The translations under genes and the position numbers were made by a program. From a bacterium ADurb.Bin243 (GTDB lineage Bacteria; Muiribacteriota; UBA9980), in contig MWBZ01000008.1 in the NCBI GenBank assembly GCA_002069765.1, forward strand, positions 1-64,000: a stretch of 64,000 bases of DNA, written 5' to 3'. Below are positions 25,075 through 35,248 of the stretch, piece after piece. The notes under the pieces are model-generated. The model saw only the letters and a list, made by a program, of their open reading frames with translations. It was not told where the DNA came from and ran no database searches. Each line of letters starts with the position of its first letter. Within the stretch, counting starts at the first letter, position 1.

Positions 25075-25764
25075 TCAGCTGTAGAAAATTATATAGAGCA
25101 TGGCGAAAAGGACCGCCCAGAAAATAATTTCTCTCAAATAGCCCGAAATTATATATCTTTTATCCATCGTCGCCGCTTCGTCTAGCGAGTATTCGCGGGC
25201 GGCAAGGCCCTGCGGCGGCTCTTCGCGGGACGTGAGCATCTGTTCGCTTCTTAAAAAATACGTTTCGAAAAAATGAATATATTCGTGAAATATTGTTTTA
25301 AGCACCTGGTATGAAAACTGCTTTTCATCGGAAATGCCGAGCATATTGAACGAGCCTTCGAATAGCGCTATCGATTTTGATTCGTAAACCGTTTTATACT
25401 CAGACGCCGGATTTTCGATAAACGGCGAATTGGGCGCAAAGCCCGAAGACGAGTATCTTTCGACATGCGAAAAGTGGCCCAGGACTATGGATTCTTTAGG
25501 CCCGAACTGCGCTTCCCTGCAGATTCTTACAGGGCAAATCTTCTTTATGTTAAGAGATTTTTCAAGAAGCTCAGGCGTCACTTCGATTTTTTGCTTTAAA
25601 ATATCGAGTATCCTGTTGTTATCCAGGTCGTAAAGCATTTTCCTTACGAAATAATAGCCGCGCCCCTTGAAAAATAAATGGATATAGCGCGGCAGAAGCT
25701 CGTTAAAAAACAAGTCGGTCTGTACGCGCGTTATTTCGTTGAAATCGGTCATATCGGCCGCCAT
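25075..25764 (-). CDS. Membrane-anchored zincin-like metallopeptidase
   Basis: A 229-residue protein with HEYIHFFETYF near residue 160-170, a full HExxH zinc motif, and SLDEAATMD about 30 residues later, whose Glu could be the third ligand. A single hydrophobic helix (about 207-228) at the C-terminus would anchor it in the membrane with the catalytic part in the cytoplasm; there is no signal peptide. I do not recognise a named family. Possible roles are membrane-protein quality control or processing. GGAG is only two bases from the ATG, which is closer than usual, so the start is not certain; an ATG four codons in is possible. It lies upstream of the protease/GTPase operon on the same strand, but a promoter lies between them. 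Confidence 0.62.
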   Translation of the reverse strand: MAADMTDFNEITRVQTDLFFNELLPRYIHLFFKGRGYYFVRKMLYDLDNNRILDILKQKIEVTPELLEKSLNIKKICPVRICREAQFGPKESIVLGHFSHVERYSSSGFAPNSPFIENPASEYKTVYESKSIALFEGSFNMLGISDEKQFSYQVLKTIFHEYIHFFETYFLRSEQMLTSREEPPQGLAAREYSLDEAATMDKRYIISGYLREIIFWAVLFAMLYIIFYS

Positions 25765-26771: not shown

Positions 26772-26800
26772 TTGATAATAAGCTTTAATTTATGTATAAT
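26772..26800 (+). promoter_or_regulatory. Promoter of the DUF3857/transglutaminase operon
   Basis: TTGATA (26772-26777), 17 bases and TATAAT (26795-26800), 78 bases before the first start codon. Confidence 0.78.
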
Positions 26801-26877
26801 GTTAAGGTACCGGGCAGCCCGGGAAACCCGAATTGAAAAGCGGATTAAAATAAGTCATAAAAAAGGGAGTGGATGTT

Positions 26878-29007
26878 ATGAAAAACTCGAAGATTAAATA
26901 TCAATTATATTTGATATTGATCTTTCTGTGCTTCTTAGGAACCCAAAAGCAGGCGGAAGTTTCCGCCATGAGCGTCACGCTCGGCGACGGAAAAACATAC
27001 CCCGCAAGCTGCCCGAGCGGCGCGGAAAACAGGTTTACGGTCGAGAAAAACGGCAGTCTGGAAGTTTTAACTATATCGGATATCAAGAATATAGATTTTT
27101 CCGACGAAAAAAACGCTCCGGCGGAAACCGATAAAAAAGTCAAGCCGGGCGTATCGCCTGAAATACTCGAAATTTTAAGCAAAGTCCCTGATAAATCAAA
27201 ATTTCCCAACGCCGGCGGCTATATAATAAAAGACGAAGACGTCTATACGCTAAACGCCGACGGAACTTATAAAATCGTTTCTCATTATATCTTTAAAATA
27301 TTCGAAGACCGCGCTATAGACAACGGCATTACGGCCGGGTACGCCTTCGAGCGCGAATCGGCCCGCATACTCATGGGACGCACCATATCAGAAGACGGAA
27401 CCGTTTACGATCTTGACCTTTCAGATATTAAAACCGGCGATATGTTCCGCGGCGCGAAATTTTACTCGAACACCTATAAAATAATGTCGGCGACCCTGCC
27501 CAACGTTAAAAAAGGCTCTATCATAGAATATAAAATAGAGCGCAACGTGTTCAAACCCATTATAGAAGGCTATTTCACGCCCGCCATTTACTTCGGTTCA
27601 GTCGAACCGGCTTATGAAGTGCGGCTCGAAGTCCGCATGCCTAAAGGCAAAAAATTGCAGTGGATAGCCAAAAATTTCGACAGGATATACGATAAAAATT
27701 TCGAGGCCGTAAAAAGCGCTCAAAAACCTGAAATCATAGAAAAACCAGACTGCGACGCCTATATCTTCAGGGCCGTAAACGTGCCGGAAATAATCCAGGA
27801 GCCTTCGATGCCGCCTCTTAAAGACGTGGTCCCGCGCGTGCAGTGCTCCGCCTATGAAAACTGGGACAAGATATACGAGTGGGACATAAAAAACCTCGGC
27901 GAAAACATGGCGCGTATTTCAGACGAATTAAAAGCCAAAACGCTCGAACTCACCAAAAACTGCAAAACCAGCGATGAAAAAATAGCGGCGATTTACCATT
28001 ACGTCCAGCAGGAAATCCGCTATATTTCAATCAAAGGCGACGTGGTAGCGGGGCGCGCCGGCCATCCGGCTAAAGAAGTCTTTGAAAATAAATACGGCGA
28101 CTGCACCGATAAATCCATATTGATGGGCGCCATGCTCGGCGTGGTGGGCATCACGTGTTATCCGGCCGCAATACTGGCCGGAGGCGGCGACTGGGACCCC
28201 GAAGTGGCGCATATAGACTCGAACCATAAAATATCGTTCCTGTCGTACGACTCTAAAGAAATATTTCTGGACAGCACTTCTCAAAATACGAGGTTCCCGT
28301 TTTTCAGGGCTGACGACCACGGCCGCAACTGCCTGGTTTCGCAGGCGCGCCGCATGGTGCGTTCCGGCACGCCCGTCAGCAACGTAAAATCCAGCTGCGA
28401 AGTCGTCATAAAAGCCGATAAAAGCATAACTATAAGCGGCGTCCGCGAATTCGACGGCCACCTGGAGTCCTCGATACGCGGCCGCAATAAAAGCCTCAAG
28501 GAAAGCGAGATCAAAGACATATATAAAAGCTCGCTCAATCAAACGCTGCCCGGCGTCGAGCTTAAAAAATTGAACTACACCGATCTTATGGATTTGAATA
28601 AGCCGGTCGTAGAAACTTACGAATACAACGCGCCGGAAGCCGTTATAGCAGCCGGAGAACTGATGCTGTTTTCGGTGCCCGGATACGAAATGAAATTCAA
28701 CGAAACCAGCCTCAAACAGCGGAACTATCCCATAGATTACGCCTACCTCACCAATACCGAAAAAGTTTATAATTTCAAACTCCCCGAAGGTTATAAAGTT
28801 AAATACCTGCCCGGAAAACTTGAAATAGACAATAAATATATGCTTTACAGGGCCGAATTCGTAAAAGCCGGCGAAGACAGGGTCGTGTTCTCCGACAAGC
28901 TCGAAAGAAAGCTCAGGATGGTAGATCCCGCCGATTACGAAAGCTATAAGGCGGACTGCGAAAAAATAAAAAAATACTGCGGTGAAAAAGTAGTCATAAG
29001 CCGTTAA
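26878..29007 (+). CDS. DUF3857/transglutaminase-like exported protein 1
   Basis: A 709-residue protein. Signal sequence (1-31), a short SH3-like segment (MSVTLGDGKTYPA...IKNIDFSD), a DUF3857 beta domain (about 75-290, with GYAFERESARILMGRTI), a transglutaminase-like core (about 330-480) and a C-terminal beta domain. The catalytic triad is visible: Cys409 in KYGDCTDKS, the His in DSNHKISF, and the Asp in IFLDSTSQ. Such enzymes may cross-link or cut peptide chains outside the cell; the true substrate is unknown. The start is the ATG at 26878, eight bases after GGAG; an upstream in-frame GTG overlaps that site and is rejected. It is the first of three tandem paralogues, 14 bases before the next. 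Confidence 0.85.
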   Translation: MKNSKIKYQLYLILIFLCFLGTQKQAEVSAMSVTLGDGKTYPASCPSGAENRFTVEKNGSLEVLTISDIKNIDFSDEKNAPAETDKKVKPGVSPEILEILSKVPDKSKFPNAGGYIIKDEDVYTLNADGTYKIVSHYIFKIFEDRAIDNGITAGYAFERESARILMGRTISEDGTVYDLDLSDIKTGDMFRGAKFYSNTYKIMSATLPNVKKGSIIEYKIERNVFKPIIEGYFTPAIYFGSVEPAYEVRLEVRMPKGKKLQWIAKNFDRIYDKNFEAVKSAQKPEIIEKPDCDAYIFRAVNVPEIIQEPSMPPLKDVVPRVQCSAYENWDKIYEWDIKNLGENMARISDELKAKTLELTKNCKTSDEKIAAIYHYVQQEIRYISIKGDVVAGRAGHPAKEVFENKYGDCTDKSILMGAMLGVVGITCYPAAILAGGGDWDPEVAHIDSNHKISFLSYDSKEIFLDSTSQNTRFPFFRADDHGRNCLVSQARRMVRSGTPVSNVKSSCEVVIKADKSITISGVREFDGHLESSIRGRNKSLKESEIKDIYKSSLNQTLPGVELKKLNYTDLMDLNKPVVETYEYNAPEAVIAAGELMLFSVPGYEMKFNETSLKQRNYPIDYAYLTNTEKVYNFKLPEGYKVKYLPGKLEIDNKYMLYRAEFVKAGEDRVVFSDKLERKLRMVDPADYESYKADCEKIKKYCGEKVVISR

Positions 29008-29021
29008 TTTCAAGGAGAACC

Positions 29022-31190
29022 ATGAAAAAAAGCGAAACAATAAAACACTCCGGCCGGGGCTTTAAAGCGGCCTTCATAATTTTTCTGCCCGCGCTGATTT
29101 TATTCTCCGCTTTTATGAGCGGCGCGGCATATCCGATGAGCGTCACGCTCAAAGACGGAGCGGTATATAAAGCCGGGCCGGCCGGGCATGAAAACTTAAT
29201 ATCCGTAAAAAAAGACGGGACCGAAGAAATTATCGATATTACTCAAATCAAAACGATCGATTTTTCCGACGAAGCTTCCGGAACGGATAAAAACGCCTCC
29301 GAAACGGCGGCCGCGGAGCTTAAAATTCCGGCGGACGTAAAAGCCATACTCGACGCGGTTCCCGATAAAGGCAAATTCCCCAACGCCGGCGGATATATAA
29401 TAAAAGACGAAGACATATATACCCTCAATACCGACGGAACCTATAAAGTGCGCTCGCACTATATTTTTAAAATATTCGAAGACCGCGCGGCTGACGGCAA
29501 TATAATCATGGGCTACGCCTTCGAGCGCGAATCGGCAAGGATAATCATGGGCAGAACCATTCAGCCTGACGGAAGGGTTTCCAACCTCGACCCGAAAGAT
29601 ATAAAAGAAGGCGATATGTTCCGAGGCGCGCAGTTTTATTCTAACACTCAGAAGATAATATCGGCCACGCTGCCCGACGTTAAAAAAGGGTCCATAATCG
29701 AGTATATAATCGAAATGAACGTATTCAAACCTTTGATAGAAGGCTATTTCTGCCCGACTGTATATTTCGTGGCCAACGAGCCAAAAAAAATGTGCCGTGT
29801 GGAAATAAGAACGCCTAAGGGCAAAAAATTAAAGTGGGTATCTAAAAACTTCGACAGGATATACGATAAAAATTTCGATATTTTAGAAGCCGTAAAGGAG
29901 CCTAAAATCAGCGAAACCGCTAACGAAACCGTATATCTTTTCGAAATCGCGGACGTGCCGGAGTTCATATCGGAACCTTCGATGCCGGCGTATAAAGATT
30001 CGATGCCCTATATTCAATTTTCTTCATACGATAACTGGGATAAGATTTACGAATGGTTCAACGCCAACTTCGACAAACACGTAAACGCCATATCGCCTGA
30101 AATGAAAAGCAAAGCTGAGGAAATAACTAAAAACTGCAAAACCGCCGAAGAAAAAATAGCGGCTATATATCACTATATCCAGCAGCAGAACAGGTATATT
30201 TCAATAAAAGGCGACCTGGTGGCCGGCCTCACGGGCCACGACGCCGGGCGCACTTTCGCTAACGGCTACGGCGACTGCGTGGATAAAGCCATATTAATGT
30301 CGGCCATGCTCAAAGTAGCGGGAATAGAATCATATCCCACGCTCATAAACGCCGGAGGCCCGCAATGGGCCATAGAAGCAGCCCAACTCGAGCTGAACCA
30401 CTCCATTTCATTCGTCAGATACGACTCGCGCGAGATTTTTCTGGACGCCACTTCGCAGGACAGCAGGTTCCCGTTTTTCCGCACCGATGACCACGACCGC
30501 TACAACATGGTGCCTCAGCTTAAAAAGCATATAAAATCCGGCATGCCGCTTAGCGTTCAGAAAAGCTACAGGCAGGTCGTTATTAATGCAAACGGAGGCA
30601 TAAGCGTAAAGGGCAGGCGCGAATTCGACGGCGCTTTCGAGTACTGGACAAGGATGGCGAATAAAAGCCTCAAGGAAAGCGAGATAAAAGACAGCTTCAA
30701 GCAGCGCCTTAACGTCACGCTGCCGGGCGTCGTATTGAATAAAATCGAATACACGGATTTAATGGATTTAAACAAGCAGGTCGTTGAAACCGTAGAATAC
30801 GAAGCGCCCGACGCGGTTATAGTCGCGGGCGGACTCATACTGTTCGCCGTTCCGGGCTACAGCTTCGATTTCGACGAAGTGAGCCTCAAGGAAAGAAAAT
30901 ATCCCATAGATTACCAGTACCTCACCAGGACCGAAAACACCTTTGAATTCAAGATCCCCGAAGGCTACAAAGTGAAATACGTTCCTAAAAATTTTGCGGT
31001 GGAAGATAAATACATTAAATTCGGCGCTAAATACGAAATAAAGGACGGCTCCACTATAGTGTTCAGCGATTATTTCGAGCGCAGGCAAAGGACCGTCGAC
31101 GTCGACGATTACGCTTCTTACAAGAGCAATCTCGAAAGCATCGCCAGATACGCCGGAGAAAAAGCCGTGATAGAAAAAACCGGCAGGTGA
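29022..31190 (+). CDS. DUF3857/transglutaminase-like exported protein 2
   Basis: A 722-residue close paralogue of the gene before it, sharing whole blocks (FPNAGGYIIKDEDIYTLN, YAFERESARIIMGRTIQ, SLKESEIKDSF). Signal sequence (1-37), SH3-like strand segment, DUF3857 domain, transglutaminase-like core and C-terminal beta domain. The triad is intact: Cys419 in GYGDCVDKA, the His in ELNHSISF and the Asp in IFLDATSQ. AAGGAG stands ahead of the ATG. Membership of the operon is clear from the 14-base gap on its left. After it come 80 bases with a small GC hairpin and then the third paralogue. It probably acts in the periplasm together with copy 1. Confidence 0.85.
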   Translation: MKKSETIKHSGRGFKAAFIIFLPALILFSAFMSGAAYPMSVTLKDGAVYKAGPAGHENLISVKKDGTEEIIDITQIKTIDFSDEASGTDKNASETAAAELKIPADVKAILDAVPDKGKFPNAGGYIIKDEDIYTLNTDGTYKVRSHYIFKIFEDRAADGNIIMGYAFERESARIIMGRTIQPDGRVSNLDPKDIKEGDMFRGAQFYSNTQKIISATLPDVKKGSIIEYIIEMNVFKPLIEGYFCPTVYFVANEPKKMCRVEIRTPKGKKLKWVSKNFDRIYDKNFDILEAVKEPKISETANETVYLFEIADVPEFISEPSMPAYKDSMPYIQFSSYDNWDKIYEWFNANFDKHVNAISPEMKSKAEEITKNCKTAEEKIAAIYHYIQQQNRYISIKGDLVAGLTGHDAGRTFANGYGDCVDKAILMSAMLKVAGIESYPTLINAGGPQWAIEAAQLELNHSISFVRYDSREIFLDATSQDSRFPFFRTDDHDRYNMVPQLKKHIKSGMPLSVQKSYRQVVINANGGISVKGRREFDGAFEYWTRMANKSLKESEIKDSFKQRLNVTLPGVVLNKIEYTDLMDLNKQVVETVEYEAPDAVIVAGGLILFAVPGYSFDFDEVSLKERKYPIDYQYLTRTENTFEFKIPEGYKVKYVPKNFAVEDKYIKFGAKYEIKDGSTIVFSDYFERRQRTVDVDDYASYKSNLESIARYAGEKAVIEKTGR

Positions 31191-31203
31191 CGGCGGCCCC
31201 GGC

Positions 31204-31220
31204 TCGCGCCGCAGGCGCGA
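31204..31220 (+). other. Intercistronic hairpin
   Basis: TCGCGCC, GCA loop, GGCGCGA: a perfect seven-bp stem between copies 2 and 3 of the operon. There is no T-run after it, so it may protect or trim the mRNA rather than end transcription. Confidence 0.5.
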
Positions 31221-31270
31221 CTAAATAAAGAAAAATATATATCAATTTTTAAATAAACGGAGGAACTGAT

Positions 31271-33394
31271 ATGAAGAAAAAAAATACGGCGGGTAAATAT
31301 ATTAAAATCGTAATATACCTCCTCGCGATTTCGTCATTATTCGCTCTGGCTGGCAAATTCGCCGCGGCCGACGTCATACACCTTAAAAACGGCGACAAAA
31401 TCAGCGGCGTGGTATCTTTAAAAGACGGAATGGTGACGGTCAAGCCGCCATATACGGAAAAACTGCTGATAGGCTTCAAGGAAATACAGAAGATCGATAT
31501 AACCCGCGGCAAAGACACGGAAGAACTCGCCCTCATCAAAGACGAAGCGCTGCAGAAAGCCTGCGCCGAAAAGATAAACGAGGCAGATTACCCCAACGCC
31601 GGCCATGTGACCTTATACAAAGAAGAAAACTACGTTTACAACGAAGACCACACGGTGGTAACCGAATCGCGGTCGATAATCAAAGTGCTCAAGGAACGCA
31701 GCCTCGACGCCGCCAATTACGTGCGCTCGTTTAAAAAAGAAGAGGAGAGCATAGAAATAGTTCACGCGCGCTCGGTTTCGGCGGACGGCATAGTGTCGAA
31801 CCTCAGAAACGACGCGGTCAAGCACACCGATAAATACCTGGCCTATCCCATGTACGACAAAGTCAAAATCCTTCAGTTTTCAGTGCCCGAAGTCAAGATA
31901 GGAAGCATTATCGACGTTAAGATTATAACTAAATCCTATAAGGCGGACTGTCTCAATCCCCTCACCTACAGGCAGTATTTCATGTCTTACGAGCCGGTCA
32001 AATTCAGCAGGTTTACCATAAAATATCCCAAAAGCCTTAAAAACATCAAATACAAAAAATATTTCACGCCCGAAGAAAGCGTTAAAATCAACGAAACGGC
32101 CACCGGCGAAACGGTCATCGCGTCTTACGAAAAAAGCGATATCCCCGATTTCATAGACGAACCCATGATGCCGCCGTTTTCTTATTTTGCGCCGAACGTA
32201 AAATTCGTTCAGAAATTCAAATTAAACGATATCGCTGCGAACCTCAAGGAAAGGATCGCGCCTAAAACGGCTTTGAGCGATAAAATGAAAAGCGACCTCG
32301 CCGAAATGATAAAAGACTGTAAAACGGCGAAGGAAAAGGCCGCTAAAATATACGCCTACCTTTCCACGAATATAAAGAATGTCGAAGTAGAATCCACCAT
32401 AGACGATTTCAGGCCCAACGACGCGGCGAGGGTTTACAGCGAAAAATACGCTTCGCTTTTCGACCGTTCGGTTTTGCTTTATTCGTTTTTAAAAGAAGCC
32501 GGCCTGGAGTGCGATATTTACTTCGGCACGAACCAGAATTCATATAAATTCGACGAAGATATGATGAGCGTTTACGATTTCGACAATATCCTGGTCGGAT
32601 GCGGAAAAGACTTTCTATACGCGGATTCGGAATATTATCCGTACGGCGTGATTCCCGAAAGCTATAAGGACAATAAATATTTCAAAGTTTTCGGCGGCGG
32701 CGGGCTTTTCGAAATCGCGCGCGATAAATTCGAAAGAAGCTTCACCGACGATCTGCTCACGCTCGATATCTCGCCCGACGCAAGGACCGTTTTCCATCTT
32801 CAGGAATTCGCGCACGGCAGCTCCGACCCGTCTTTCCGCGCAGGCTATAAAAATTTGAAGCCTATAAAACGCAAACAGTCGTTCGAGCAGACGGCGTCGA
32901 GCATCGCCAACGGCGGGCAGCTCATAGGCTACACGCTCACCGACGTTGAAAACCATAACGAAAAGCAGGGCTGCACCATAGATTTCGAATCGCCTAACTA
33001 CGTGTCTAAATTAGGCGATATGTATATGCTCGTGCCGGTGCCGCTTTCGTCGATATACACGGGTTTCGTGTCCAAGGAAGACCGTAAATACGACCTTTTC
33101 TTCGACAATTTTAACCTCGACTCCGTAAGCGTATCCATAAAGCTGCCCGAAGGCTATAAAGTCAAATACCTGCCGCAGTCGATCGAAAAATCCAACGAAT
33201 ATTTCAGGATATCGCTCAAATTAAAATACGACGAGAAGAAGAACGAAGTCACCTTCACCAGAAATAATGAAACGCTTAAAAAGATAGTTCCGGTAGCGAA
33301 TTTCAAAAAACTGAAAGACCTCTTCGAATCGTCCGCCACGCTGAAAAAAGAAAGAATAATACTTGAAAAAGCCGCGGCGGAAAAGGGAAAATAA
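31271..33394 (+). CDS. DUF3857/transglutaminase-fold protein without catalytic residues
   Basis: A 707-residue diverged third member. Signal sequence (1-33), LKNGDKISGVVSLKDGMVTV segment (a short beta unit common at the start of exported proteins), DUF3857-like domain, transglutaminase fold and C-terminal beta domain ending in KLPEGYKVKYLPQS as in copies 1 and 2. At the place of the catalytic YGDC motif it has YASL (residues 393-396), and the NHxISF histidine is replaced by YDFDNILV; the Asp region reads YADSEYY. It therefore should not be an enzyme and may be a binding or scaffold partner. The GGAGG before the ATG is good. It is followed after seven bases by the flippase-like gene. Confidence 0.78.
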   Translation: MKKKNTAGKYIKIVIYLLAISSLFALAGKFAAADVIHLKNGDKISGVVSLKDGMVTVKPPYTEKLLIGFKEIQKIDITRGKDTEELALIKDEALQKACAEKINEADYPNAGHVTLYKEENYVYNEDHTVVTESRSIIKVLKERSLDAANYVRSFKKEEESIEIVHARSVSADGIVSNLRNDAVKHTDKYLAYPMYDKVKILQFSVPEVKIGSIIDVKIITKSYKADCLNPLTYRQYFMSYEPVKFSRFTIKYPKSLKNIKYKKYFTPEESVKINETATGETVIASYEKSDIPDFIDEPMMPPFSYFAPNVKFVQKFKLNDIAANLKERIAPKTALSDKMKSDLAEMIKDCKTAKEKAAKIYAYLSTNIKNVEVESTIDDFRPNDAARVYSEKYASLFDRSVLLYSFLKEAGLECDIYFGTNQNSYKFDEDMMSVYDFDNILVGCGKDFLYADSEYYPYGVIPESYKDNKYFKVFGGGGLFEIARDKFERSFTDDLLTLDISPDARTVFHLQEFAHGSSDPSFRAGYKNLKPIKRKQSFEQTASSIANGGQLIGYTLTDVENHNEKQGCTIDFESPNYVSKLGDMYMLVPVPLSSIYTGFVSKEDRKYDLFFDNFNLDSVSVSIKLPEGYKVKYLPQSIEKSNEYFRISLKLKYDEKKNEVTFTRNNETLKKIVPVANFKKLKDLFESSATLKKERIILEKAAAEKGK

Positions 33395-33401
33395 TAATTA
33401 A

Positions 33402-34454
33402 ATGCAAATGCAAAACCAGAAATCTATCGTAAAAAAAATAATAATAGGCTCGCTTCTGGGCGCGGCCGTCTTTATTATAATAGCCTTCATGGCGGATTAT
33501 AAGAAAGTGGCCGCCGCGCTCATGGATTTTCCGCTGAAGCTGTGGCCGTTCATTTTATTTCTCTCGCTGATGAATTACGCATTCCGCCTTATCAAATGGG
33601 ATTTTTACCTGGAAAAGCTCGATATTAAAATACCGCGCCTGTCGAGCGCGCTGATATTTTTTTCCGGGTTTATAATGGCGATAACGCCAGGCAAGATGGG
33701 CGAAGTGCTCAAATCGCTTCTCATGTACGAGCACCACGGTGTCGCGGTTACAAGGAGCGCTCCGGCGGTTTTTATGGAGCGCCTCACCGACGTTCTTGCG
33801 CTGCTGTTTATATGCGCTTCGGGCGTGGCCTTCGCGCTGGCGGGGAAAAGCGGCGGCGGGGCGGCGCCCGGGACCGGAGCGGGAGGGTTATCGTTCGAAA
33901 GCGGCCAGCTTTTATCGCTGGCGGCGGTGGCGGTAATAACTTTCGCGCTTATAGCGGCGCTTTCGAGCCGCAGGTTCGTTATGGGCGTTTTAAAATTCAT
34001 GGAGCGCTTCAGCTTCATAAAAAAGCATATAGTGCATATAGAATCGCTCTTTGAAGCGGCGCGCCTTATTTTAATGCCCTGGCCGCTTTTTTACGCCACA
34101 TTCCTTTCGATCCTCGCATGGGCGCTCGAATGTTATTCGCTTTATTATATAATAACGGTCATATCGCCCGGCCTTTCGGCGCCGCCTCTCGAGCTGCTCC
34201 TTTTCAGCTCGTTCGCCTACGCTTTTTCAACTATAATAGGCGCGCTCGCCATGCTTCCGGGCGGCCTGTTCGTTACCGAAGGCGGAATGGCGTTTTTACT
34301 GGTCGGCCTGGTGAAGCTTACGATGTCAAAGGCGGTGGCGGCTACTTTTATGGTGCGCGCCGCGACTTTATGGTTCGCGCTTTTAATAGGGATATTCGCG
34401 CTTCCCGCCTTTAACGCATATATCAAAAAGGCCGCGGCGGGGCGCGCAGCATAA
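33402..34454 (+). CDS. Flippase-like integral membrane protein (LPG synthase TM/UPF0104 family)
   Basis: A 350-residue protein with about eight membrane helices. It matches the LPG_synthase_TM (UPF0104/AglD-type) family: NYAFRLIKWDFYL in the first third, SGFIMAITPGKMGEVLKS (the conserved TPGkxGE motif), ERLTDVLAL, and the C-terminal LPGGLFVTEGGMA. Members help move or modify lipids, for example lysyl-phosphatidylglycerol or lipid-linked sugars. The region 143-165 is Gly/Ala-rich (SGGGAAPGTGAGG), likely an outside loop. The start has only a weak AAGGG upstream; a second ATG two codons in is possible. It lies seven bases after the third DUF3857 gene, so it is the last gene of that operon and may supply or flip its lipid-linked substrate. 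Confidence 0.85.
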   Translation: MQMQNQKSIVKKIIIGSLLGAAVFIIIAFMADYKKVAAALMDFPLKLWPFILFLSLMNYAFRLIKWDFYLEKLDIKIPRLSSALIFFSGFIMAITPGKMGEVLKSLLMYEHHGVAVTRSAPAVFMERLTDVLALLFICASGVAFALAGKSGGGAAPGTGAGGLSFESGQLLSLAAVAVITFALIAALSSRRFVMGVLKFMERFSFIKKHIVHIESLFEAARLILMPWPLFYATFLSILAWALECYSLYYIITVISPGLSAPPLELLLFSSFAYAFSTIIGALAMLPGGLFVTEGGMAFLLVGLVKLTMSKAVAATFMVRAATLWFALLIGIFALPAFNAYIKKAAAGRAA

Positions 34455-34479: not shown

Positions 34480-34508
34480 TTGACTTTAAAATCATTTTGT
34501 TGTATAAT
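34480..34508 (+). promoter_or_regulatory. Promoter for the CxxC protein gene
   Basis: TTGACT (34480-34485), 17 bases and TATAAT (34503-34508), 47 bases before the ATG. Confidence 0.87.
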
Positions 34509-34555: not shown

Positions 34556-35248
34556 ATGAAAAAAGGTATATTAAAATCAATAGTTGCCCTCGGCGTCATC
34601 ATCGCAATATCGTTAACGGCCGCGGCCGCGTTCGCGCAGGACGACATGCAGGAAGCTAAAGCCTCGTTTTTAGGGGCGGGCGTTAAATTCAAAATGGACC
34701 GTCCGTCGATGAAAGCCAGAAACTTAGAAAGCGCCAACAGCGACCAGGTAAAACAGGCCGTCGAATATAAAAGCATGGACAACGGACTTTTAAGCGGCGC
34801 GTTCAACGGCGGTTCCGGCGAAGGCGTAAGAAGCCGTCCTATCAAAGACACGAAGATCGTCTGCGAAGTCTGCAAAGCGAAAGCCGTAGTTAACGCCAGC
34901 GAAAACTGCGAATTCTGCAAAGGTAAATCCTACGCCGATCTCTGCGACAAATGCATAGCATGGTCTATCTTAAATTCGTGCGACGAATGCAAAACCAAGA
35001 TCCGCGGCAAAGTGGCTAAAAAAGAAGAAGCGGCGGCCGTTAAAGAAGAAAAAGCCCCCGAAACAGCTTCGGACGAAGCCGTAAAAACAGCTCCCGCCGA
35101 ATCATTCGAAGAGATCACGGCCGACGAAACCTCGGCTGAAAAGGCTGTCGAAAAACCTAAAACTAAAAAGAAATCTTCAAAAAAAAGCAAAGCGAAAGCC
35201 GCTAAAAAAGTTGAAAAATCAAAAGAAGTTGAACCCGTAATTGAATAA
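34556..35248 (+). CDS. Exported four-CxxC (zinc-ribbon-like) protein with Lys/Glu tail
   Basis: A 230-residue protein. Signal peptide (1-25, cleavage near AAAFA-QDD). The middle (about 100-145) has four CxxC pairs: CEVC, CEFC, CDKC and CDEC, the usual layout of a double zinc ribbon or a redox cysteine cluster. The tail (from about 155) is built of Glu/Ala blocks and then a Lys-rich stretch (KPKTKKKSSKKSKAKAAKK). The basic tail could bind nucleic acid, phospholipid or cell-wall polymers. No family is recognised. An exported protein with eight cysteines implies metal binding or disulfides. GGAG fixes the ATG. A strong promoter and a terminator make it a single-gene unit. Confidence 0.68.
   Translation: MKKGILKSIVALGVIIAISLTAAAAFAQDDMQEAKASFLGAGVKFKMDRPSMKARNLESANSDQVKQAVEYKSMDNGLLSGAFNGGSGEGVRSRPIKDTKIVCEVCKAKAVVNASENCEFCKGKSYADLCDKCIAWSILNSCDECKTKIRGKVAKKEEAAAVKEEKAPETASDEAVKTAPAESFEEITADETSAEKAVEKPKTKKKSSKKSKAKAAKKVEKSKEVEPVIE

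Follow-up and report, generated by a model that had tools for sequence, protein, structure and literature searches.

The locus described here, from the genome of bacterium ADurb.Bin243 (GCA_002069765.1), probably encodes an exported heterodimer composed of a transglutaminase-like enzyme and a catalytically inactive paralogue. It lies in a window of 64,000 nt (contig MWBZ01000008.1, positions 1-64,000, forward strand), and the basis of this reading is the observed domain content, residue loss and selection, together with pairing and co-duplication across lineages. Proteins with DUF3857 occur widely and are, to our knowledge, essentially unstudied. The searchable literature, outside which subscription papers and preprints largely fall, names DUF3857 in a single paper and only incidentally; a description of active-dead DUF3857 pairing was not found there, nor was any match to a transglutaminase-like pseudoenzyme in the periplasm.

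Table 1. Features of the DUF3857 locus in the window.
Feature	Coordinates	Strand	Description	Basis
Promoter-like site	26772..26800	+	Sigma-70-like, TTGATA-17-TATAAT, upstream of copy 1	Consensus match 11/12, sequence match alone
Copy 1 (A')	26878..29007	+	DUF3857 and transglutaminase-core protein, predicted export, Cys-His-Asp kept, extra active-type copy	ORF, Pfam, alignment
Copy 2 (A)	29022..31190	+	Ancestral active-type member of the pair, triad kept	ORF, Pfam, alignment
Copy 3 (B)	31271..33394	+	Inactive partner, Cys to Leu, His to Asn/Asp, Asp to Tyr, domain layout as in copies 1 and 2	ORF, Pfam, alignment
Membrane gene	33402..34454	+	LPG_synthase_TM / TIGR00374 flippase-like membrane protein, genus-specific fourth gene	ORF, profile matches

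The layout described in the first-pass annotation, namely three predicted exported paralogues with an LPG_synthase_TM-type gene 7 bp further on, is recovered by open reading frames and Pfam. DUF3857 is present in copies 1, 2 and 3 (E 1e-17, 1e-21 and 9e-16, respectively), with scores of 59-78 bits against a Pfam cut-off of 24.6. Transglut_core clears its 23-bit cut-off in copies 1 and 2, whereas copy 3 stays slightly under it at 22.0 bits; the N-terminal domain of copy 3 additionally gives a weak match to NF047433. Copy 1 shares 58% identity with copy 2 and 25% with copy 3. We infer the export of all three copies from their N-terminal sequences. The start of copy 1 is the ATG at 26878, with an alternative GTG at 26869. 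The fourth gene exceeds the cut-offs of both flippase-like profiles (LPG_synthase_TM, E 2.5e-35, 122.8 bits against 33.4; TIGR00374, 53.5 bits against 43.2), and its translocation function is putative.

Copies 1 and 2 are separated by 14 bp and copies 2 and 3 by 80 bp. The next strong plus-strand promoter-like site, by consensus match only, is found past the membrane gene at 34480-34508. A promoter-like site before copy 1 and the next one only after the membrane gene are consistent with a four-gene transcription unit, and the arrangement fits a single transcript under one promoter-like site, although such matches are not proof. The site at 34480-34508 precedes the gene of a predicted exported protein with CxxC motifs (34556-35248), which in the genus is encoded after the flippase. 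On the other side of the locus, a minus-strand gene (25075-25764) encodes a protein with a HEYIH motif that matches the MYPU_1760 HExxH metalloprotease model weakly, below its cut-off.

In an alignment of phylum proteins, the three catalytic columns read YGDC, SNH or LNH, and FLD in copies 1 and 2, as the first-pass annotation had claimed for their Cys-His-Asp triad. The YASL and YDFDN that it reported for copy 3 also hold, and the third residue is lost as well (FLY), so that the columns read Leu, Asn and Tyr and the triad is complete in copies 1 and 2 only. A shifted triad in copy 3 had been set beforehand as the check on the claim that this copy is dead. Among 38 copy-3-type proteins of the phylum no alternative conserved Cys or His was found and no such column exceeds 72%, whereas in 40 copy-1/2-type proteins both Cys and His reach 100%; a shifted triad is therefore rejected, and the claim stands.

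DUF3857-family genes were searched in 40 genomes of the window's phylum, the named relatives being Candidatus Wallbacteria GWC2_49_35 and a UBP16 genome. The matches occur as adjacent same-strand pairs. Of these, 36 could be read at the active site, counting that of the window, and every one has the intact member first and the degenerate member second. In most phylum pairs the two genes overlap by 4 bp; the gap found instead between copies 2 and 3 weighs against a complex. At one locus (L043) two adjacent frames of 485 and 213 aa together make up the active gene, owing to an assembly error or a frameshift.

Within the genus, an orthologue of copy 2 is present in 4/4 genomes, while an orthologue of copy 1 was found in only one of three congeners and the locus of the other two lacks this copy. 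The flippase gene adjoins the pair in 4/4 genus genomes and was not seen beside it elsewhere in the phylum. The four-gene order proposed for conservation is thus not kept in relatives, and the four-gene set is rejected as a conserved module. What is conserved is the pair formed by copies 2 and 3, one active-type and one inactive protein; the flippase is a local addition, as is copy 1, a lineage-specific second active-type copy, and the triple arrangement is a lineage event. What survives of the earlier unit of two active proteins, one dead protein and a flippase is the association of active and inactive members, which is broader than had been claimed.

The pairing extends beyond the phylum. 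In a wider sample that includes two named Bacteroidota records, 22/22 readable pairs have exactly one intact member, which is encoded first in 19 and second in three, bringing the readable pairs with one intact and one degenerate member to 58/58. A second sample, drawn from the phylum of genome G101 (13 clusters) and one genome of the phylum of G175, gave 14 further clusters, each again with exactly one intact member. Active and inactive paralogues are encoded together across lineages, and since the pairs share phylogeny these counts are read as consistency and not as independent events. Three of the 14 clusters (L137, L141, L143) are triples in which a single intact member stands with two degenerate ones, opposite to the window, where two copies are intact and one is degenerate. 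Stand-alone members are mostly intact (33/37 readable); the few single dead members that exist weigh against a complex. In one genome, window-like intact and degenerate members stand alone on separate contigs (L120 and L123), possibly as an unlinked pair. The recurrence of this live-plus-dead pairing in many bacterial groups suggests a two-part complex as the working form of the family.

Three loci, L066 in the phylum and L112 and L119 outside it, fuse the active and dead halves in a single open reading frame, and the second half of these fusions has no signal sequence; such natural fusions point indirectly to a physical heterodimer. Distances among active and degenerate members are correlated (Mantel r 0.976, reached by 0/5000 permutations), partly through plain vertical descent. 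Five genomes carry two pair types, in which every active type is matched by a degenerate type of its own: distances are 0.44 within types and 0.72 between types for the active proteins, and 0.51-0.54 and 0.78 for the degenerate ones. Judged from these sequence distances, the second paralogous pair type was duplicated jointly with its own partner.

The same observations bear on what the dead member does. It may not bind the active one at all, acting instead on its own as a protein that binds the same substrate or polymer and is co-transcribed because both serve one pathway. In favour of this, the dead member retains the beta-rich accessory domains DUF3857 and DUF3858, and the order of the two genes is not constant in other groups, where the dead gene sometimes comes first. 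The natural fusions in three lineages and the tight one-to-one pairing, co-duplication included, argue against it, and we regard this explanation as unlikely. Alternatively, the dead member could be an inhibitor or safety partner that holds the enzyme off until its substrate or membrane partner is present. The pairing evidence that supports the heterodimer also serves this explanation, and a fusion is compatible with an inhibitory domain; however, the active gene usually comes first, where an inhibitor-first order might be expected, and the three active-dead fusions are maintained, so that an inhibitory role appears improbable.

Whether the dead members could still be enzymes through other residues turns on what replaced the triad. 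In 18 of the 58 dead members the Cys is replaced by Ser or Thr, which would suit a substitute nucleophile, but 16 different residues occur there (Thr, Leu, Ser, Asn, Pro, Arg and others) and 14 at the His position. Such diversity at the lost Cys is as expected of loss and not of a new nucleophile and, with the 72% ceiling on Cys and His columns noted above, leaves this alternative very improbable. One partner (L087) has kept the Cys and lost the His.

Copy 3 is not decaying: its dN/dS across four genomes of the genus is 0.07-0.10, about equal to that of copy 2 and of the flippase, with copy 1 at 0.074, and although synonymous sites approach saturation in most of the comparisons, the closest pair (dS 0.37) gives 0.074. 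The notion that copy 3 is a functionless decaying duplicate, to which the loss of all three catalytic residues might point, is rejected by this dN/dS and sits poorly with its full-length open frame and the phylum-wide arrangement, which makes it a negligible prospect. From these substitution patterns, copy 3 is catalytically degenerate yet maintained under strong purifying selection.

In the tree, degenerate members fall into several clades. A single origin of all dead members is rejected only mildly (p-AU 0.016 for one clade, on 39 rows and with a long-branch caveat), so that dead members likely, though not certainly, arose more than once.

In its fold and catalytic triad, the DUF3857 family matches Cys amidases and transamidases. 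In the heterodimer that we favour, the active-type member (copy 2, plus copy 1 here) would use the Cys-His-Asp site of its papain/transglutaminase fold to cleave or exchange an amide bond via a Cys thioester. Copy 3 most likely binds the active member as an obligate partner that would shape, gate or target the active site. The complex is probably periplasmic and may have as its target a component that serves the assembly of surface glycans or lipid-linked polymers.

Neighbouring genes bear on this last point. In the window's genus the pair is accompanied by the flippase-like protein; in 13 genomes of another family an O-antigen-ligase-like (Wzy_C) protein with TPR repeats follows the dead gene, which it usually overlaps or nearly abuts. 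These neighbours, different as they are between families, weakly suggest that the pair acts in surface-glycan assembly; many pair loci in other groups have unrelated neighbours, so a glycan role is a lead and not a finding. The envelope-polymer role put forward in the first-pass annotation is plausible on account of the flippase-like gene here and the O-antigen-ligase-like gene in the 13 relatives, while the flippase itself does not hold as part of the unit. In one phylum family (L044, L045, L052, L053, L061-L064) the pair is followed by genes for a TPR protein of ~1240 aa and a protein of ~310 aa, the latter without a Pfam match at these loci; at several of them both genes lie downstream of the O-antigen-ligase-like gene.

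A functional lead comes from HvyA of Caulobacter, an exported transglutaminase-like protein of 272 residues that blocks capsule formation and needs its Cys-His-Asp triad (PMC4241560). It resembles the active members of our locus in export, fold class and triad, but it belongs to another family, and neither a DUF3857 domain nor a dead partner is reported for it. Its capsule effect shows that such enzymes can act on a surface-glycan system and says nothing direct about the DUF3857 family. A more ambitious reading, in which the family across many phyla forms an obligate enzyme-pseudoenzyme heterodimer of more than one origin that works with O-antigen-ligase-like or flippase-like membrane proteins in the modification or attachment of a surface glycopolymer, is possible but doubtful.

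The DUF3857 pair may be compared in its logic with bacterial M16B metalloproteases, which occur as heterodimers (TTHA1264/TTHA1265, SPH2681/SPH2682, AlbF/AlbE) or as single chains (FusC and PqqL) (PMC12731061). There too an active subunit is combined with a motif-less partner, encoded by paired genes or within one fused chain (PMC12731061). The likeness ends at fold and chemistry: M16B enzymes are zinc clam-shell proteases, whereas the proteins here have a papain/transglutaminase fold and would form a putative complex.

Low-confidence AlphaFold2 models were obtained for copies 3 and 2 (pLDDT 55 and 62, from shallow alignments of 11 and 9 sequences), for which reason only the identity of their top match was used. 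For both models the best Foldseek match is PDB 3KD4 (BDI_1141, Parabacteroides distasonis, 'putative protease'), whose domain order is like that of the window copies. The sequence of 3KD4 is nearly letter-for-letter that of the second gene of a Parabacteroides pair, and it has YGTP where the active family has YGDC, as in a dead partner. The intact partner (GVC) is encoded 13 bp upstream, and no PDB sequence match to it was found. By its sequence, the only solved structure of the family that we found thus matches the inactive half. If the family is an active-inactive pair, this structure shows only that half, the expression of single proteins would be the wrong experiment, and pairing offers a direct, testable route to function.

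The next Foldseek matches of both models are to ribophorin I / Ost1 of the oligosaccharyltransferase complex (E about 1e-5). At TM 0.13-0.21 on poor models, and as Pfam gave no supporting match even at E up to 10, this likeness was set aside; it is possibly a generic beta-sandwich effect. At L129 the active-dead pair of Parabacteroides distasonis lies on a plasmid-labelled record, NZ_OY725779.1, directly downstream of menaquinone biosynthesis genes, and this record may be a mislabelled chromosomal contig.
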